NCBI RefSeq assembly: GCF_010119195.1
Contig: NZ_WRXL01000005.1
Span: 1 to 64,000 of the forward strand
Length of the DNA stretch: 64,000 nt
Direction: 5' to 3'
Source of the DNA: Haloarcula salina
GTDB lineage: Archaea > Halobacteriota > Halobacteria > Halobacteriales > Haloarculaceae
Position numbers and translations under genes: made by a program. The notes below the pieces were generated by a model, which was given only the letters and a program-made list of their open reading frames with translations, was not told the DNA's origin and searched no databases. Below, one piece after another: positions 4,672 through 11,983 of this stretch. How positions within the stretch are numbered: the stretch's first letter is position 1; each line of letters opens with the position of its first letter.

Positions 4672-5460
4672 TCAGTGACTCGTGTCGGCTGGGCTCCCGA
4701 GTTCCTCCCTAATTCGCGCGACGTGGTCCACGAAGTCACGAGAAGTCCGTTCACGAGGGCGTTCTATGTCGATAGAGAACGTCGACTGCACGGTTCCCGG
4801 GTCTGCTCCCATCACGACCACGCGATCGGCGAGGGTCACCGCCTCGTCGATGTCGTGCGTGACGAACACGACTGTCTGCTCGGTCTGCGTCCAGATGTCG
4901 AGCAGTTCGGCGTGCAATCGGCCGCGCGTCCGGGCGTCGACACTCCCGAACGGCTCGTCCATCAAGAGGATCTCGGGATCGGGGGCGAGCGCGCGAGCGA
5001 TTCCGACGCGCTGTTTCATGCCGCCGGACAGCTCCTTCGGGTACGCGTCTTCGAACCCGTCGAGACCCACCAAGTCGATCAACTCCCGGACTCGCGCTTC
5101 GCAGTCCGGGCAGTCACACGCAGGTCGGTCGAGGCCGAACCGGATATTCCCGCGCACGGTTCGCCACGGGAACAGCGCGTACTCCTGAAAGACCATCCCT
5201 CTGTCCAGCCCAGGACCGGTGACCGGGTCGCCACCGACCAGTATCGACCCACCGTCCGGGTCGTCGAGGCCGGCGATTGCCCGCAACAGCGTCGTCTTCC
5301 CACACCCGGACGGGCCGACGACACAGCAGAATTCACCCTCCGTAACCGAGAGCGAGACGTCTGCGAGCGCTCGGGTCGACTCGTAGGACCTGCTGACGTT
5401 CTGGATAGTGATCTTCGCGCGTGCCTCTCGACTGGTGGACGAGTCCGAACTCAGCGCCAT
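4672..5460 (-). CDS. Nitrate/sulfonate/taurine-family ABC transporter ATP-binding protein
   Basis: The ATPase of a three-gene importer; starting at ATG 5460 it has 262 residues. Motifs are Walker A GPSGCGKTT, Q-loop MVFQEYALFPW, signature LSGGMKQR, Walker B ILLMDEPFGSVD and VTHDIDEA. These place it with SsuB/TauB/NrtD-type ATPases. An unusual Cys triplet, ACDCPDCEA, lies in the helical domain between the Q-loop and signature. The start overlaps the permease stop by ten bases. The frame remains open far upstream, but that part is Arg-rich shadow of the permease. The substrate is not defined by the sequence. Confidence 0.88.
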   Translation of the reverse strand: MALSSDSSTSREARAKITIQNVSRSYESTRALADVSLSVTEGEFCCVVGPSGCGKTTLLRAIAGLDDPDGGSILVGGDPVTGPGLDRGMVFQEYALFPWRTVRGNIRFGLDRPACDCPDCEARVRELIDLVGLDGFEDAYPKELSGGMKQRVGIARALAPDPEILLMDEPFGSVDARTRGRLHAELLDIWTQTEQTVVFVTHDIDEAVTLADRVVVMGADPGTVQSTFSIDIERPRERTSRDFVDHVARIREELGSPADTSH

Positions 5461-6293
5461 GCGAGGACCCTCCCTTCGAGGAGTCGGAACCCGACGTCCA
5501 TACAGAGGAACGCCAGGCTGATCAGGAACATGTAGGCGACGCTGGTCGCCATCGCGAGGTTGTTCGAGGCGTTGATGATCTCGTAACCGACGCCGGGTGC
5601 GCCGAACAGCTCGGCGCCGACGACGATCATCCAGCATCGGCCGATGCTCGTCCGGAACCCTGTCAACACCTGGGGGGCGGCGCTCGGGAGGGCGACGAGC
5701 TTTAGCATCGAGAGGTCGCGCTCCACGCCGAGGGTCGACGCAGCGTCGGTCAGATCGCTGGAGACGCCTTCGACGCCCCCGTACGCGCCGTAGAAGTTGA
5801 TCCAGAACGCGCCGACGAAGACGATGAACGCCGCGCCGGTGTGGTGGATGCCGAACCAGACGATGGCGAAGACGACCCACGCCAGCGGCGGGACCGGTCG
5901 CAACACCCGGACGAGCGGCCGTAGCCAGTCGTCGAGCGAACCGTTCCAGCCCATCGCCAGCCCGAGACTGATGCCACAGCCCGCACCGAGGAGGAGGCCA
6001 GGAACGTAGTGGAACAACGTCTGTGCGAGGTGTGCGAAGCCGGTCGGCAGGACCAGCCTCGAAGCCAAGACGGGGACCGTGATCGCTGTCGAGGTCGCGA
6101 ATAGATCGAGAAACGCGCGTACTGATTCGAGGGGGCCCGGAACCAGATACGACGGATGGGTCGTCATCGCACCAACCCACCAGACGAGGAGGAACACGAG
6201 GAGCCCGCCCAGGCCGCGCAGATACCGCCGTAGGTCCCCTTCGAAGCTTTCGGCGAGTACCGCGCTGGCATTGGTGTCGGTACGCGTACTCAT
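5451..6293 (-). CDS. Nitrate/sulfonate/taurine-family ABC transporter permease
   Basis: The 280-residue protein has about six membrane spans of the BPD_transp_1 fold. The coupling region reads LRPVPPLAWVVFAIVWFG and, further on, ALPSAAPQVLTGFRTSIG, the latter matching the EAA-type loop contacting the ATPase in SsuC/TauC proteins. It overlaps the binding-protein gene upstream by four bases (ATGA) and the ATPase gene downstream by ten, so the three are one translationally coupled operon. As a single permease gene it probably acts as a homodimer. Confidence 0.88.
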   Translation of the reverse strand: MSTRTDTNASAVLAESFEGDLRRYLRGLGGLLVFLLVWWVGAMTTHPSYLVPGPLESVRAFLDLFATSTAITVPVLASRLVLPTGFAHLAQTLFHYVPGLLLGAGCGISLGLAMGWNGSLDDWLRPLVRVLRPVPPLAWVVFAIVWFGIHHTGAAFIVFVGAFWINFYGAYGGVEGVSSDLTDAASTLGVERDLSMLKLVALPSAAPQVLTGFRTSIGRCWMIVVGAELFGAPGVGYEIINASNNLAMATSVAYMFLISLAFLCMDVGFRLLEGRVLAWR

Positions 6294-7315
6294 TCGTGAA
6301 TGGCGTCGTAGGGGTCGAACGCGAAGAGGTCCTCAGTCGCGACCGGTTCTTCGATGTTCCCGACGTTTGCGACGAATTCACCCATCGTCGCGGCCTGGTC
6401 GGTGATCGCGTGCGGGTCCGAGAAGAAATCCGACGCCTGTGAGTCCATGGCCGCCGTCGCGAGGTCCTCGCTCACGCCGGAGCCGATTACGGAGGCAGCG
6501 TGGGCGCCAGCGGCGTCCGGCGAGTCCGCCGTGAATTCGGTCGCCGCTATATGCTGTTCGACCAGCGACTGGGCGACATCGCTATCGGAGAGCACTCGCT
6601 GGTTCGCGAACAGCACCGTGACCGGGTGGTTTTCGAGGATATTTCCGGACCAGGCGAGTTCGCCGAAGCCGTCGTCCTGACCGATGATCGTCGCGAACGG
6701 CTCCTGGATGATCGTCGCGTCGATGTCGCCCGACTGGATCGTCTGGACCGCCTTCGCTGGCGGGACGTTCGACTTGTCGACGACGGACTCCATCTCGCCG
6801 GCGTCGAGACGCTCCTGGATCCAGTATCGGAGGACGATGTCGGGGACGCTCCCGTCGGGCGGGGCCCCGAATCGGACCTTCCGACCCTGCTCTCTCTCGA
6901 AGCGCTCGAACGCGGCTGCCCCGTCCTGTTCGTAGCGGTCGACGAGGTCGGCCGGTCCCACGATCTTGAAGCCATTTCTCGAGTTTGCCGCGAGGATACC
7001 GGCTTCGGTCCCTTTGTCGACGAGAACCATTGCAGGAGAGATGCCGAAGAGCGCAACGTCGACGTCGCCGCTGGCAAAGGCCTTGACGACGCTGGGACCT
7101 GAGCTGAACCGCTCTATCGTGACATCCGCAGGGACGGCCTCGTAGTATCCCTCCTGTAGCATCACGTAGTGTTGCATGTTGGGATAAATCGGGACGTACG
7201 CGACCGTGACGGAATCGAGTGAAGCACCTCCCTGACCGAGGCAGCCAGCGATTCCCGCCGTTGCAATCGTGGTTGCCCCCGTCTGGAGCAGTCTTCGGCG
7301 CGAGGTGTGAATCAT
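6290..7315 (-). CDS. ABC transporter substrate-binding lipoprotein (SsuA/NrtA/TauA family)
   Basis: I choose ATG 7315 (341 aa), which places RRRLLQ, the Tat signal, close to the N-terminus; a 24-base longer reading exists. The lipobox IAGC follows, so the mature protein is lipid-anchored outside the cell. The body is a periplasmic-binding-protein type 2 fold: VAYVPIYPNMQHYVMLQEGY near the N-terminus, SGDVDVALFGISPAMVL, and GDIDATIIQEPFA, patterns of the NMT1/THI5-like and sulfonate/nitrate-binding group. It heads the operon with the permease and ATPase. The ligand is unknown. Confidence 0.86.
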   Translation of the reverse strand: MIHTSRRRLLQTGATTIATAGIAGCLGQGGASLDSVTVAYVPIYPNMQHYVMLQEGYYEAVPADVTIERFSSGPSVVKAFASGDVDVALFGISPAMVLVDKGTEAGILAANSRNGFKIVGPADLVDRYEQDGAAAFERFEREQGRKVRFGAPPDGSVPDIVLRYWIQERLDAGEMESVVDKSNVPPAKAVQTIQSGDIDATIIQEPFATIIGQDDGFGELAWSGNILENHPVTVLFANQRVLSDSDVAQSLVEQHIAATEFTADSPDAAGAHAASVIGSGVSEDLATAAMDSQASDFFSDPHAITDQAATMGEFVANVGNIEEPVATEDLFAFDPYDAIHE

Positions 7316-7642
7316 CAGTGTTACTAATTCTAAAGTCAAATATAATAATAGCTGTGATTTTAGAGTAAATAGTTAATACTAATGGAGTTTGAGAACATAG
7401 AGATTGCTAGACTCGACGTGAGTTCCGCGGGAGGGGCGACACAGCATCAGCAAACGAAGCGAGCGGGCTATACTCATGCGCCGGCGGTATCAGCGTGACC
7501 TATCGTGAGCGTGTCCCTCGTCGCTCGAATGGTGTTGGCGTGCTCGAGCCGACGATTTCGCCCGACGTCGGCGGGTGTCCACGCAGTGAGACGGCGTGCT
7601 GACGGTTTCAGGACTGTCGGAGGTTCAGAACTGTTTTGTATG
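7316..7642. other. Intergenic region without a gene
   Basis: This gap separates the divergent ABC operon and the iron-binding-protein genes. The first about 70 bases are AT-rich and contain TATA-like text for the leftward operon. The remainder is GC-rich without a convincing reading frame. No RNA gene or long repeat was seen. Confidence 0.6.
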
Positions 7643-7658
7643 TTTAGGTAGACCTAAA
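7643..7658. promoter_or_regulatory. DtxR/IdeR-type iron operator 1
   Basis: TTTAGG and CCTAAA flank four bases (TAGA). The site ends four bases before the ATG at 7662 and sits between a TATA-like stretch (about 7634-7646) and the start, where a bound repressor would block transcription. The half-site matches the TTAGG/CCTAA core of DtxR/IdeR operators. Two further copies with the same 4-base spacing lie at 9026 and 11600. Confidence 0.72.
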
Positions 7659-7661
7659 AGT

Positions 7662-8906
7662 ATGCCAGATGATTCCAGCGGCCACGAGGTACCGACGCGT
7701 CGTGACTTCGTGCGATACGGTGGCGCAGTCGTCGGCGGAGGCCTGCTCGCCGGGTGTGCAGGCCAGTCCGACAGCGGGTCGACGTCGACCGAGACGACTG
7801 GTGGCGAAATCGAGACAGCCACGCCACTGTCGGAGGACGAGAGCTACGCAGTGACGATGTCACCGGTCGGGACTGTCGAGTTCGAGCAGGTCCCGGAGAA
7901 CATCCTGCCGTACTTTCCGATCTCGGCAGGAACTACTGTCGCGCTCGGACACGGTGAATCGATCAACGCGATCGGCTACGACAAAGAACTGTTCGGGAAC
8001 ACCGTCGACTACTATTACGACCGCCTCGAATCCGTCTCCTTCGAGTGGGAGGAGCTGGCCCGTGTCACGCAGAGTGACACCCCCAACTCGATCGACGAGG
8101 AAGTGCTCTACGAACTCGACAGTGACGTTCACTTTCTCGACCCGGCCGTCCTCCGGAGTTCGAATTACGGCTGGGATCAGGCGGACATCGAAGCCATCGC
8201 ATCGGATGTCGGCCCGTGGTTCGGGAACTACTACAGTCGCACCAACGGACAGCCACCGGCGTCGTACCGGGAGAGCTACGAATACTACTCCCTCTGGGAG
8301 TATATCGGAAAGATCGCTTCCGTCCTGCGGGAAACAGAACGGTACCGGGCCTTCAAGTCGATCCGAGACGACCTCGTCTCACGGATCCTGTCTCGGTTAC
8401 CACCAGAGCCCGAACGGCCGTCCGTCGCTATCGTCGCGTACGCGAACGAGACATTCTGGCCGTACGATTTCACGCAGGACGGCTACATCTGGGGGCACGT
8501 TCGCCCGATGGGCGTTGAAAACGCCTTCGAGACGGTCCAAGGAGGGCCCGGTTCGGACGGGAGCTACGACATCGAGGGGATCGCCGAGGCGTCGCCCGAC
8601 GTGATACTCCGTTATTGGGGCACTGCCCTCGGTGAGACGTTCGTCGAGCGCCGGGCGAAGTTACTCGACAGGCCGCTCGCCGAAGAGATTCCGGCTCTCG
8701 ACGACGAACGGTACTATCCTTCCGGCCACGGTATGCAGGGGCCCGTGATGAATCTGTTCAACCTGGAAATGACCGCCAAACAGCTGTACCCCGAGCAGTT
8801 CGGCGAGTGGCCCGCGTACACTGAAGAGTCGTACCCGGAAATCCCGGACGGGGAACAGTTATTCGACCGCCAGCGCGTCGCAGCCATCATCAACGGCGAT
8901 ATCTGA
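7662..8906 (+). CDS. Iron-siderophore-type ABC substrate-binding lipoprotein, paralog 1
   Basis: The 414-residue protein starts at ATG 7662, directly after the operator. It has a Tat motif (TRRDFVRYGG), the lipobox LAGC at about residue 30, a Thr/Ser/Glu linker, and a FepB/FhuD-like type III binding fold with paired segments such as ALGHGESINAIGYDKELF and ASPDVILRYWG. The C-terminus, with EMTAKQLYPEQFGEW and LFDRQRVAAIINGDI, is nearly the same in its two downstream paralogs. Binding of a ferric siderophore is inferred from the fold and the iron-type operator. No permease or ATPase gene is next to it. Confidence 0.82.
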   Translation: MPDDSSGHEVPTRRDFVRYGGAVVGGGLLAGCAGQSDSGSTSTETTGGEIETATPLSEDESYAVTMSPVGTVEFEQVPENILPYFPISAGTTVALGHGESINAIGYDKELFGNTVDYYYDRLESVSFEWEELARVTQSDTPNSIDEEVLYELDSDVHFLDPAVLRSSNYGWDQADIEAIASDVGPWFGNYYSRTNGQPPASYRESYEYYSLWEYIGKIASVLRETERYRAFKSIRDDLVSRILSRLPPEPERPSVAIVAYANETFWPYDFTQDGYIWGHVRPMGVENAFETVQGGPGSDGSYDIEGIAEASPDVILRYWGTALGETFVERRAKLLDRPLAEEIPALDDERYYPSGHGMQGPVMNLFNLEMTAKQLYPEQFGEWPAYTEESYPEIPDGEQLFDRQRVAAIINGDI

Positions 8907-9025
8907 CCGAGGACCACTACGGAACTCGAATCCACACACGACGACTGCGAGGACGTCGTCGCCGCCACCGGGGCCGCTGCCGAGCGGTGAGCGCCGTGAC
9001 GGGCGGTTTCGGTGCCTTTTTATAT

Positions 9026-9043
9026 TTTTAGGCCCGCCTAAAA
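9026..9043. promoter_or_regulatory. DtxR/IdeR-type iron operator 2
   Basis: A perfect inverted repeat, TTTTAGG and CCTAAAA, flanks CCCG. It follows directly on the TATA-like run TTTTTATATTTT (about 9017-9028) and ends two bases before the ATG at 9046. The position implies repression of the two-gene unit 9046-11489 when iron is sufficient. Confidence 0.75.
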
Positions 9044-9045
9044 CC

Positions 9046-10239
9046 ATGGGCGTTCAGACAGATATTCACGAAGTTCCGACCCGGAGAGAGACGATCAAGG
9101 GCACCAGCGCCCTCCTCGGAGGGAGCCTATTGGCCGGGTGTGCCAGCGAGAGCCCCGATGGTGCACCGACAGACGCGACCGACACGACGGCCTCGCAGAC
9201 GACCGAAGATCTGACGTACTACGAGGTGACGATCGAACCGGCGGGAAACCGCACGTTCGAGGAAGTCCCCGAAACGTACGCGAGCATCCCCGGGGCGTGG
9301 ATGGACATTGCAATGGGATTCGGAATCCAGCCGACGGCCGTCGCCGCCTTCGATCGCCTCCCGCTGAAGTACTACGATGCGCTCCCGGGCGTCGAGTTCG
9401 ACGCAGACGCCGTCCAAACGCTCGGTGAATCGGCCGAGTCCCAGTACGACAAAGAAGTGTTCTACGACGTCGATGTCGACGTCCACCTCATGGATCCGCG
9501 CATGCTCAAGAAGTACTCGGGCTGGAAGGATACAGACCTCCGGGAGATCGAATCGACGGTCGGCCCGATCCTCGGCTCGCTGATTCGGTTCCCGTTCGCC
9601 GGTCGAGACCCCTACTACACGCTCTACGAGGCATTCGAGAAGGCCGCACAACTCTTCCAGCGTCAACCCCAGTACGAGGCGTGGGTGGACCTCACTGAGT
9701 CGTTCCACGCCGATATCGAATCCCGCGTCCCCCTCTCTGGGGAAGACGCACCGACAGTCGCGGCGTTCAACTTCGGATTCAGGCCGGAATCCGGGAAATT
9801 TTTCGCGGCGAACATCGACGCGGCGCGGAACGACACGCGGAGTTTCCGGAAGTTGCAGGTCGATAATGCCTTCGAGGGCGAAGAGTACGTGCCGTTCAAG
9901 CCGATCGGCTACGAGAAACTCCTCGAAGTCGACCCCGACTACATCGGAGCAATCGGTTATCTATCGTATATCGACGACGCCCGGTTCCAGGAGATCGTCG
10001 AGGCGGCACAGAACCACGAGACGCTAAGCGAATTGAGCGCCGTTGCGAACGGGAACATCGTACGGACAGGCGGCCAGTACATGGGGCCGATCATCGATCT
10101 GTTCTCGACGGAGGCACTCGCCAAACAGCTCTATCCCGAGGAGTTCGGTGAGTGGCCCGGCTCGATTCAGGACGTTCCGCAAGACGAGCAACTGTTCGAC
10201 CGCCAGCGCGTTGGGGAGATTGTCAACGGTAACATCTGA
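9046..10239 (+). CDS. Iron-siderophore-type ABC substrate-binding lipoprotein, paralog 2
   Basis: The 397-residue protein has the Tat-like PTRRETIKG, the lipobox LAGC, and the same two-lobed binding fold as the gene before it. It is the most divergent of the three: the region corresponding to the paralogs' NVAPWFGN reads TVGPILGS, and it lacks the Tyr-rich insert near the end. The tail ALAKQLYPEEFGEWPG and LFDRQRVGEIVNGNI is conserved. It has its own operator and promoter, and the next paralog starts two bases after its stop, so these two are co-transcribed. A different siderophore preference is possible but not shown. Confidence 0.8.
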   Translation: MGVQTDIHEVPTRRETIKGTSALLGGSLLAGCASESPDGAPTDATDTTASQTTEDLTYYEVTIEPAGNRTFEEVPETYASIPGAWMDIAMGFGIQPTAVAAFDRLPLKYYDALPGVEFDADAVQTLGESAESQYDKEVFYDVDVDVHLMDPRMLKKYSGWKDTDLREIESTVGPILGSLIRFPFAGRDPYYTLYEAFEKAAQLFQRQPQYEAWVDLTESFHADIESRVPLSGEDAPTVAAFNFGFRPESGKFFAANIDAARNDTRSFRKLQVDNAFEGEEYVPFKPIGYEKLLEVDPDYIGAIGYLSYIDDARFQEIVEAAQNHETLSELSAVANGNIVRTGGQYMGPIIDLFSTEALAKQLYPEEFGEWPGSIQDVPQDEQLFDRQRVGEIVNGNI

Positions 10240-10241
10240 AC

Positions 10242-11489
10242 ATGAGTAACGACGACACCACCAAGGGGCGGGCACCGACGCGACGTGGCTACATGAAGTA
10301 CGGCGGAGCAGTCGTCGGGGGCGGGCTACTCGCCGGGTGTGCGGGGCAGTCCGATTCGGAATCGGAGCCGGCCGAGACGGCCAGCGACGCCACCTCGACA
10401 CCGACCCGGACCGGGACCGAAGACGACCCCTATTCGGTGCAGATGGCGCCGATGGGCGTGGTCGAGTTCGACGAGGTCCCACAAGACGTGTTCACCATCC
10501 TGGGCCATCACGTAGACATGCTGCTGGCACTCGGGCGCGGTGATGACATCAACGCCATGCACAGTCCCGGCTACCACCAAGCGCTGTACGAGAAGCTGGT
10601 GGCCCGCCTCGACGGCGTCTCCGTCGACTGGGAAGGGCTGTACTCGTCGTGGCCCCCGACGAAGGAGAAACTGTACGAACTCGACAGCGATGTCCACATC
10701 GCGGATCCGGCCAAGGTCACGACTGGCGAGGGCTGGGCCGACAGCAACGTCCAAGAGATCGCAGAGAACGTCGCCCCGTGGTTCGGCAACACCCTGAGCG
10801 GCACAAACCGCACACCGCCGGAGGACTGGGCAGACAGGTACGAACACTACACGCTCTGGGAGATCTTCGGCAAGATCGCGCAGGTCTTCCAAGCACAGGA
10901 TCGCTACGACGCGCTCCGGTCCATCCACGAGTCGGTACTCCAGACCATCGAAGAGAACCTTCCGCCGACGTACGACCGGCCGAGTGCGGCGCTCATCTTG
11001 CTCTCTGCCGACGAAGACAGCGGCTGGGGATACAAAATGAACTATCCTGGCTACTACGCCGCTCACACTCGACCGATGGGGGCCGAGGACGCGCTGGCAG
11101 ACGCCATCGGCGAGGGCTACGGCGACGACGGGCGGAACATCACGCTCGATTACGAACTGCTCCTCGAGGCGGACCCGGACGTGTTGCTGGTTCTTGGGCC
11201 GATGACAGGGTACTTTTCCCTCGGCGAGATTCGGCAGCGACTCGAGAACGACGATGTCGCCAGTGAAATCACAGCGGTTCAGGAAGACCGGGTGTATGCC
11301 CAGGGGGCGCGGCGACAGGGACCGATACTGAACCTCTTCCAGTTGGAGATGACGGCCAAGCAGCTCTATCCCACGATCTTCGGCGAGTGGAAGGGCTACG
11401 TCAACGGCGAACCGTATCCCGAGATTCCCGAAGACGAACAGCTGTTCGACCGACAGCGAGTCGCGGACGTCGTCAACGGTGACATCTGA
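10242..11489 (+). CDS. Iron-siderophore-type ABC substrate-binding lipoprotein, paralog 3
   Basis: The 415-residue protein shares with paralog 1 an almost identical signal region (KYGGAVVGGGLLAGCAGQSD) and tail (EMTAKQLYP, LFDRQRVADVVNGDI). The middle contains ENVAPWFGNTLSGTNRTPP, also present in recognisable form in paralog 1. It begins two bases after paralog 2 and is expressed from operator/promoter 2. The close similarity of paralogs 1 and 3, with the more divergent paralog between them, points to tandem duplication. Role inferred: extracellular capture of ferric siderophore for a transporter core encoded elsewhere. Confidence 0.8.
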   Translation: MSNDDTTKGRAPTRRGYMKYGGAVVGGGLLAGCAGQSDSESEPAETASDATSTPTRTGTEDDPYSVQMAPMGVVEFDEVPQDVFTILGHHVDMLLALGRGDDINAMHSPGYHQALYEKLVARLDGVSVDWEGLYSSWPPTKEKLYELDSDVHIADPAKVTTGEGWADSNVQEIAENVAPWFGNTLSGTNRTPPEDWADRYEHYTLWEIFGKIAQVFQAQDRYDALRSIHESVLQTIEENLPPTYDRPSAALILLSADEDSGWGYKMNYPGYYAAHTRPMGAEDALADAIGEGYGDDGRNITLDYELLLEADPDVLLVLGPMTGYFSLGEIRQRLENDDVASEITAVQEDRVYAQGARRQGPILNLFQLEMTAKQLYPTIFGEWKGYVNGEPYPEIPEDEQLFDRQRVADVVNGDI

Positions 11490-11599
11490 GTAGCGGTGTC
11501 TCAGACTTAGAGTTAGGCAGTACGAAAAATTGATAGATTTCATTAATGAACCGGGACTCTATTCCAAATACAAAGGGTAGAGGTGCTGAAGAGCGTTAT

Positions 11600-11615
11600 T
11601 TTAGGCACTCCTAAA
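11600..11615. promoter_or_regulatory. DtxR/IdeR-type iron operator 3
   Basis: TTTAGG and CCTAAA flank CACT, the same architecture as the sites at 7643 and 9026. It lies 41 bases upstream of the NifU-like gene at 11657. The TATA-like element could be TTATTTTA, overlapping the left arm, or AAGATTTATG just downstream, so the geometry differs from the other two sites. Confidence 0.68.
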
Positions 11616-11656
11616 TCTAAAGATTTATGACACTATGGGACTGATCTACAGTTGTA

Positions 11657-11983
11657 ATGAGCGCAGAAGGACTCGAACGACAGACGCGTAGTTACCTGAG
11701 CAACGAAGTCCCCCAGATTCAGCAACACGGCGGCAACTTCGAAATCCGCGACGTTGACGAGGATGCGGGGACGGCGACCGTCGTTATCGGCGGCGCCTGT
11801 TCCGGGTGTGGGATCGCTCCGATGACGATGAAGGCCATCGAACACCGACTCCCCGAGAGTGTCGAGGGGCTCGAAGACGTCGAGGTCGTCCGGTCGGGTG
11901 GTCCCCGCGCTGCGGTGATGCCCTCGAAGACCGACGAGATGGACGACATGGACGAGTACGAGGACTACAGCCCCCCGTTCTAA
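11657..11983 (+). CDS. NifU C-terminal-domain-like Fe-S cluster scaffold protein
   Basis: The 108-residue protein resembles the Nfu domain: a helix-rich N-terminus ending near GGNFEIRDVDE, a strand TATVVIGG, then GACSGCGIAPMTMKAIE, in which the CxxC pair binds a bridging Fe-S cluster between two subunits, and LEDVEVV. The acidic tail is halophile-specific. Family members deliver clusters to apo-proteins in the cytosol. The iron-type operator upstream places it in the same regulon as the three binding proteins, suggesting adjustment of Fe-S assembly to iron supply. Confidence 0.85.
   Translation: MSAEGLERQTRSYLSNEVPQIQQHGGNFEIRDVDEDAGTATVVIGGACSGCGIAPMTMKAIEHRLPESVEGLEDVEVVRSGGPRAAVMPSKTDEMDDMDEYEDYSPPF

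Follow-up and report, generated by a model that had tools for sequence, protein, structure and literature searches.

TTTAGG-N4-CCTAAA operators of the DtxR-family type before siderophore-binding-protein and nifU-like genes of Haloarcula salina: one motif on either side of the TATA box

The first 64,000 nucleotides (nt) of contig NZ_WRXL01000005.1 of Haloarcula salina (C10:1-64000, hereafter the window, in a genome of 3.79 Mb; C numbers denote contigs and L numbers the loci compared) contain three copies of the palindrome TTTAGG-N4-CCTAAA, two before genes for putative siderophore-binding proteins and one before a nifU-like gene, and the question that they raise is whether one iron regulon acts on all three in the same manner. 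The earlier note on this DNA had described them as DtxR/IdeR-type operators of one iron regulon. The three operators are ordinary members of the known haloarchaeal DtxR-family iron regulon, but their arrangement does not support one uniform unit. The joint reading that we hold to be fairly probable is that they are haloarchaeal DtxR-family operators with a TroR-like protein as the likely reader and an Idr-like protein as the second, through which iron represses uptake and activates the nifU-like gene.

Operator 1 (TTTAGGTAGACCTAAA; 7643-7658) and operator 3 (TTTAGGCACTCCTAAA; 11600-11615) stand at the positions reported earlier, while operator 2 (TTTAGGCCCGCCTAAA; 9027-9042) begins one nucleotide after the 9026 that had been given; all three match the palindrome exactly and carry no strand. 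With d as the number of nt between the end of a site and the ATG, operator 1 has d=3 to the ATG at 7662 and follows the TATA-like TTTTGTA (about 7634-7640), so that it occupies a blocking position between the two. It precedes paralog 1 of the binding proteins (BP1; 7662-8903, + strand), whose product begins with MPDDSSGHEVPTRR and has a Tat/lipobox-like N-terminus; the list of open reading frames (ORFs) puts its start at GTG 7596, and ATG 7662 is preferred because of the operator position and the paralogs. Similarly, operator 2 lies directly behind TTTATAT (about 9019-9025) with d=3 to the ATG at 9046 of paralog 2 (BP2; 9046-10236, +), and paralog 3 (BP3; 10242-11486, +) follows directly without an operator of its own. 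Operator 3 has d=41 to the ATG at 11657, and the TATA-like TTTATGA (about 11624-11630) lies downstream of it, so the order seen at the first two sites is reversed. The gene behind it (11657-11980, +) encodes a NifU-like (Nfu-type) protein with a PF01106 domain and a CxxC motif. Pfam gives Peripla_BP_2 (PF01497) above cut-off in BP1, BP2 and BP3 and the NifU domain at the third site. BP1-BP3 are presumably FhuD-type siderophore-binding proteins, a substrate deduced from family and regulon only. An NMT1-type binding protein with permease-like and ATPase-like ORFs lies divergent to BP1 (4672-7339, - strand), and a perfect operator also lies within, or immediately ahead of, the predicted start of a related NMT1_2 protein (C7:560865).

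The palindrome occurs far above chance. Three exact copies in the window compare with 0 expected from 100 dinucleotide shuffles, and nine sites with up to three mismatches compare with 3.3 expected. The genome-wide scan proposed in the earlier note gave 18 exact sites against none for a reversed-pattern control; with up to 2 mismatches there were 47 sites against 40 for the control, and since signal equals background at that level, only sites with 0-1 mismatch are informative singly. Of 293 genomes of the order, 285 have the exact site, commonly 3-20 times, and 28 have any match to the reversed control. Among 120 genomes of the phylum, the 19 within the order hold 178 sites against 2 for the control, whereas the 101 outside it hold 48 against 41, which is background level. 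The operator is therefore a haloarchaeal and not a phylum-wide feature, as sites exceed the control within the order only. Its form, a palindrome with TTAGG and CCTAA half-sites, is that of the DtxR family, and it is found at promoters of iron-uptake and siderophore genes.

The genes behind the other sites of this genome, assigned by ORF scan and Pfam, show an enrichment of siderophore-synthesis, binding-protein and related iron genes. Sites precede a siderophore-type cluster at C10:345-357 kb that holds a binding-protein gene, two IucA/IucC genes and genes for a class III aminotransferase and a glutamine-synthetase-like enzyme. Eight promoters of PF01497 genes carry sites genome-wide, those beyond C10 being on C1, C9, C11 (two) and C12. 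An SBP_bac_6-type solute-binding protein gene (C9:16750) also follows a site, and one-mismatch sites stand before the genes of a ferritin (d=91) and of a ZIP transporter. At C10:345070 (L025:5071-5621), a perfect operator stands before an ORF of 177 amino acids (aa) whose first 20 residues are binding-protein-like and which has no Pfam match; it is probably a decayed or truncated binding-protein copy that has retained its operator. The suf operon was considered as a further member and rejected, as the site at the sufC gene of this genome has 2 mismatches, the level where control equals signal, and a similar site occurs in just one of seven other sufC-holding loci (L049).

The position of the site at binding-protein genes is nearly fixed. 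At 30 binding-protein homolog loci, a site lies at d=2-5 in 25 and a second site at d=37-41 in 19, while the upstream site alone is found in none. The paired sites flank the core promoter, with the upstream one beyond the TATA box; BP1 and BP2 have the start-proximal site alone. A search for exact pairs at offsets of 21-51 base pairs (bp) in 146 genomes returned 60, of which 53 are 34-36 bp apart (36 bp in 30, 34 bp in 14 and 35 bp in nine; 29 bp in four, and 31, 37 and 43 bp in one each). Five binding-protein loci have no site (L160, L167, L169, L179 and L181), the first three of which adjoin a preceding binding-protein gene by coordinates. A pair of one exact and one one-mismatch site also precedes the annotated siderophore operon of Halobacterium salinarum pNRC200.

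Unlike the binding-protein promoters, the nifU-like promoter has the upstream position only. The protein scores 49.4 bits against PF01106, its nearest solved chain is 2z51 (NifU-like protein 2), and CxxC is present in 40 of 41 NifU-like sequences, as expected of a NifU domain; it is predicted from sequence to be an Nfu-type iron-sulphur (Fe-S) carrier that binds and transfers clusters. Its homologs form a patchy, separate haloarchaeal clade found in 35 of 293 genomes at E<=1e-20. The 40 loci compared include plasmid and genome duplicates (35 are distinct) and take in 10 of 24 full-length plasmid nifU matches. An upstream site with up to 2 mismatches lies at d=38-43 in 37 of the 40 loci and in 32 of the 35 distinct ones, being absent from L084, L088 and L099. 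Conservation is 0.89 in the half-site columns, 0.46 in the 40 nt upstream and 0.62 in the 35 nt that include the TATA box. The TATA-side half-site is mostly degenerate, and the window copy is among the few perfect ones. Eight promoters (L060-L062, L073, L074, L077, L080 and L082) have additional near-palindromes, TTTGG-N4-CCAAA near d=88 or else another site at d=69-73, so that as many as three elements can precede the TATA box.

The nifU-like promoters share a second, asymmetric element with ferritin promoters. TTTAGG-N5-CGAAAA occurs at d=124-129 in about half of the nifU-like loci (strict form within 200 nt in 19 of 40), and a degenerate copy with one mismatch is present in the window (11512-11528, +). 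Across 117 genomes, the rows that match the asymmetric pattern were sorted by eye into those with CCGAAAA, which are the same as one-mismatch palindromes, and 23 others of the form TTTAGG-N4-RCGAAAA. Seventeen of the latter lie just upstream of ferritin matches, four upstream of nifU-like matches and one before an unknown gene, and one further row is probably a ferritin by synteny. At 30 ferritin loci, allowing up to 2 mismatches, a site is found at d=48-56 in 15, elsewhere in four (d=91, 31, 25 and 2) and not at all in 11; for those at d=31, 25 and 2, we think that the start codon is misassigned. The strict TTTAGG-N5-CGAA is present in 10 of the 30. The view of the three operators as one uniform unit is thus not supported, because at the nifU-like gene the site precedes the TATA box and comes together with a ferritin-shared element, and the single-regulon picture has to be split by promoter architecture.

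The genome has nine PF01325 matches, none of them in the window, where no tblastn match of 12 DtxR-type query proteins was better than E 0.07, in agreement with the earlier statement that it holds no regulator of this family. Three are clear DtxR-type genes (PF01325 above cut-off and a DtxR-like sequence), namely SirR-like C12:35030, TroR-like C7:144212 and Idr-like C12:187333, labels that we take from domain layout and neighbourhood and partly from general knowledge; the other six, on inspection of their sequences, resemble Lrp, ArsR or IclR proteins. The SirR-like protein has a FeoA domain and is the only one of the three with all three Pfam domains. The TroR-like gene is beside the suf operon, and suf genes lie upstream in eight of ten named loci. 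The metal ligands of DtxR are H79, E83, H98, C102, E105 and H106, and the TroR-like and Idr-like proteins lack the classical set. TroR-like proteins keep only the two Glu of the six (own protein and 10 of 10 others) and have an invariant CPDCF...C tail (C-x2-C...C) in 11 of 11 (own gene, L041:9204-9635; L043-L052). The Idr-like protein of this genome has none of the six, 36 others have no canonical residue in those columns, and there is no Cys tail. SirR-like is nearly canonical, with five of six ligands and Glu replacing C102. As most classical ligands are lost, TroR-like and Idr-like proteins, if they are the readers, must sense iron in another way.

The link between the nifU-like gene and an Idr-type regulator is seen in the neighbourhood. 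A small DtxR-type gene like C12:187333 adjoins the nifU-like gene in at least 23 of the 40 loci, a lower bound because the flanks are short, and by coordinates such a gene is beside ferritin in at least ten genomes. The C12:187333 protein is 47-58% identical to the six annotated small DtxR-type proteins. Beside the nifU-like gene of the window, no Idr-like gene was found among the PF01325 matches of the genome or by tblastn of the window. The RCGAAAA element co-occurs with Idr-type genes (17 of 23 genomes with them, 6 of 94 without; Fisher p 6e-11, counted by eye and uncorrected for relatedness). Since at least four genomes lack an Idr-type match and nevertheless carry the element at ferritin, Idr is not the sole reader of the asymmetric element. 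Idr as the sole reader of the palindromic operator was also rejected, as the motif is near-universal in the order and a clear Idr-type match (E<=1e-30) occurs in only 23 of the first 117 genomes. No report of the nifU/ferritin arrangement or of the TroR cysteine tail was found in the literature searched, which excluded key primary papers on the regulon.

In the mechanism that we propose, the TroR-like protein would be the most likely reader and the Idr-like protein a second, overlapping one. At BP1 and BP2, the site takes up the space from the TATA box to the start, and an iron-charged regulator bound there may block RNA polymerase and turn uptake off when iron is plentiful. At the nifU-like gene, with its site just upstream of the TATA box and its ferritin-type element, the same regulators may activate when iron is plentiful, alongside ferritin. 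For archaeal regulators of the TrmB family, the available part of one review gives the rule that a site downstream of the TFB-recognition element (BRE) and TATA box goes with repression and one upstream with activation (PMC4158304); by this rule, iron is predicted to repress BP1/BP2 and to activate the nifU-like gene. A rather unlikely alternative, yet one to be taken seriously, is that all three promoters are iron-repressed, the regulator upstream of the TATA box hindering transcription factor B (TFB) at the BRE, while the NifU-like protein would serve Fe-S assembly under iron shortage. In its favour, paired uptake promoters (19 of 30) have an upstream site too, which may contribute to repression there, and the nifU-like gene adjoins uptake genes in the window and has a binding-protein homolog no more than 7 kb away in L056 and L057. 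On the other hand, the upstream site never stands alone at binding-protein loci, and TTTAGG-N4-RCGAAAA is common to nifU-like genes (4 of 23) and to the iron-storage ferritin (17 of 23). Opposite regulation is the better prediction because of the 37 of 40 nifU-like loci with the site upstream of the TATA box and the element shared with ferritin.

Published expression data bear on the proposed mechanism. In Haloferax volcanii, the accessible text of one study reports the regulon signal before all fhu genes and, at low iron, a rise of more than 4-fold for five of the 11 FhuD paralogs (PMC11349517). In Haloferax mediterranei, E6P09_17310, which has paired operators at d=4 and d=40, has an Idr-type gene (RS17320) and a NifU gene (RS17325) as neighbours. 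According to the part of the report available, its log2 fold change under denitrification is -3.20 and that of siderophore genes -6.0 to -7.1; RS17320 and RS17325 are absent from the same table, which is one of uptake genes only (PMC11218638 Table 2).

Several observations weigh against the proposed mechanism. The upstream position is by itself no proof of activation, because it is also occupied in paired uptake promoters. The available text on Hfx. volcanii gives IucC as down 10.4-fold at low iron, contrary to simple repression (PMC11349517). In what is available of the Hfx. mediterranei study, the condition is denitrification at equal medium iron, with no iron change, SirR and not TroR is named as the proposed repressor, and E6P09_17000, which carries a site, is absent from Table 2 (PMC11218638). 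Some exact sites of this genome precede genes without a clear iron role, such as a PAS/histidine-kinase protein gene (C14:89027) and an RGP-like protein gene (C9:17956), and a perfect pair at C14:50617/50652 (35 bp offset; L030:5618-5668 = C14:50617-50667) has no clear adjoining gene of at least 80 aa. A DUF7827/PGF-CTERM surface protein gene with no evident iron role is also preceded by a site. Four sites with 0-2 mismatches lie between an adenylate-kinase-like gene and the gene of an 851-aa PGF-CTERM surface protein (L032:6970-7138; C1:488969-489137), speculatively a possible counterpart of the Hfx. volcanii surface protein paired with an iron-induced RND permease.

That the SirR-like protein, and neither TroR nor Idr, reads the operators is an unlikely alternative with some substance. 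TroR of Hfx. volcanii is reportedly the primary iron regulator there, which we count against it, and five of the eight genomes without a site are among the 20 of 195 that have no TroR/Idr-type match, against three among the remaining 175, a comparison confounded by small incomplete genomes. SirR is nevertheless the sole one of the three with nearly intact ligands and all three Pfam domains, and the available part of the Hfx. mediterranei report proposes SirR for repressed iron genes (PMC11218638). For the identity of the reader and its binding, we infer TroR-like first and Idr-like second. Quite doubtful, though it takes up the missing ligands, is the idea that iron is sensed as Fe-S cluster status by a DtxR-fold regulator without metal sites: the TroR-like tail would carry a cluster or iron, the NifU-like protein would be its cluster-handling partner, co-regulated with ferritin through the asymmetric element read by Idr, and the position of the operator would decide the output, off for uptake but on for ferritin and the Fe-S carrier. 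Chance palindromes or a non-metal regulator are scarcely credible: several targets of this genome lack an obvious iron role, but shuffling predicts no site, the genome has no control site, and the distance to the ATG and the pair spacing are fixed. The likely regulators without most of the ligands that define DtxR are the most interesting loose end, and the NifU/ferritin link makes the question of their iron sensing concrete.

The haloarchaeal DtxR-family iron regulon also goes, reportedly, by the names of the FetR/'ferR' signal of Leyn and Rodionov 2015 and of the TroR regulon of Hfx. volcanii. Bacterial DtxR/IdeR operators have a 19-bp form that contains TTAGG-N4-CCTAA, so the half-sites TTAGG and CCTAA are in common with the site here, which differs in being a 16-bp symmetrical core without a second overlapping half-site pair and in being paired 34-36 bp apart around the TATA box in haloarchaea. 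The resemblance to the haloarchaeal regulon is drawn from the target classes, which are the same: the available part of the report describes the signal before all fhu genes, many FhuD paralogs and an iron-regulated siderophore cluster (PMC11349517). Compared with other Nfu-type carriers (the NifU C-terminal domain), the nifU-like product has PF01106 and CxxC in common and belongs to a separate patchy haloarchaeal clade, in which a small DtxR-type regulator gene is the neighbour at 23 of 40 loci. One DNA word at uptake genes and at an Fe-S carrier gene, in two fixed places before and after the TATA box, amounts to a testable rule of sign in archaea. A parallel among the systems compared is that of the dual-sign regulators TrmBL1/Tgr, described in the accessible part of one report, which use one motif to activate from upstream of the BRE/TATA and to repress from downstream (PMC4158304); they belong to another regulator family than the DtxR-type proteins considered here, for which the sign is predicted.

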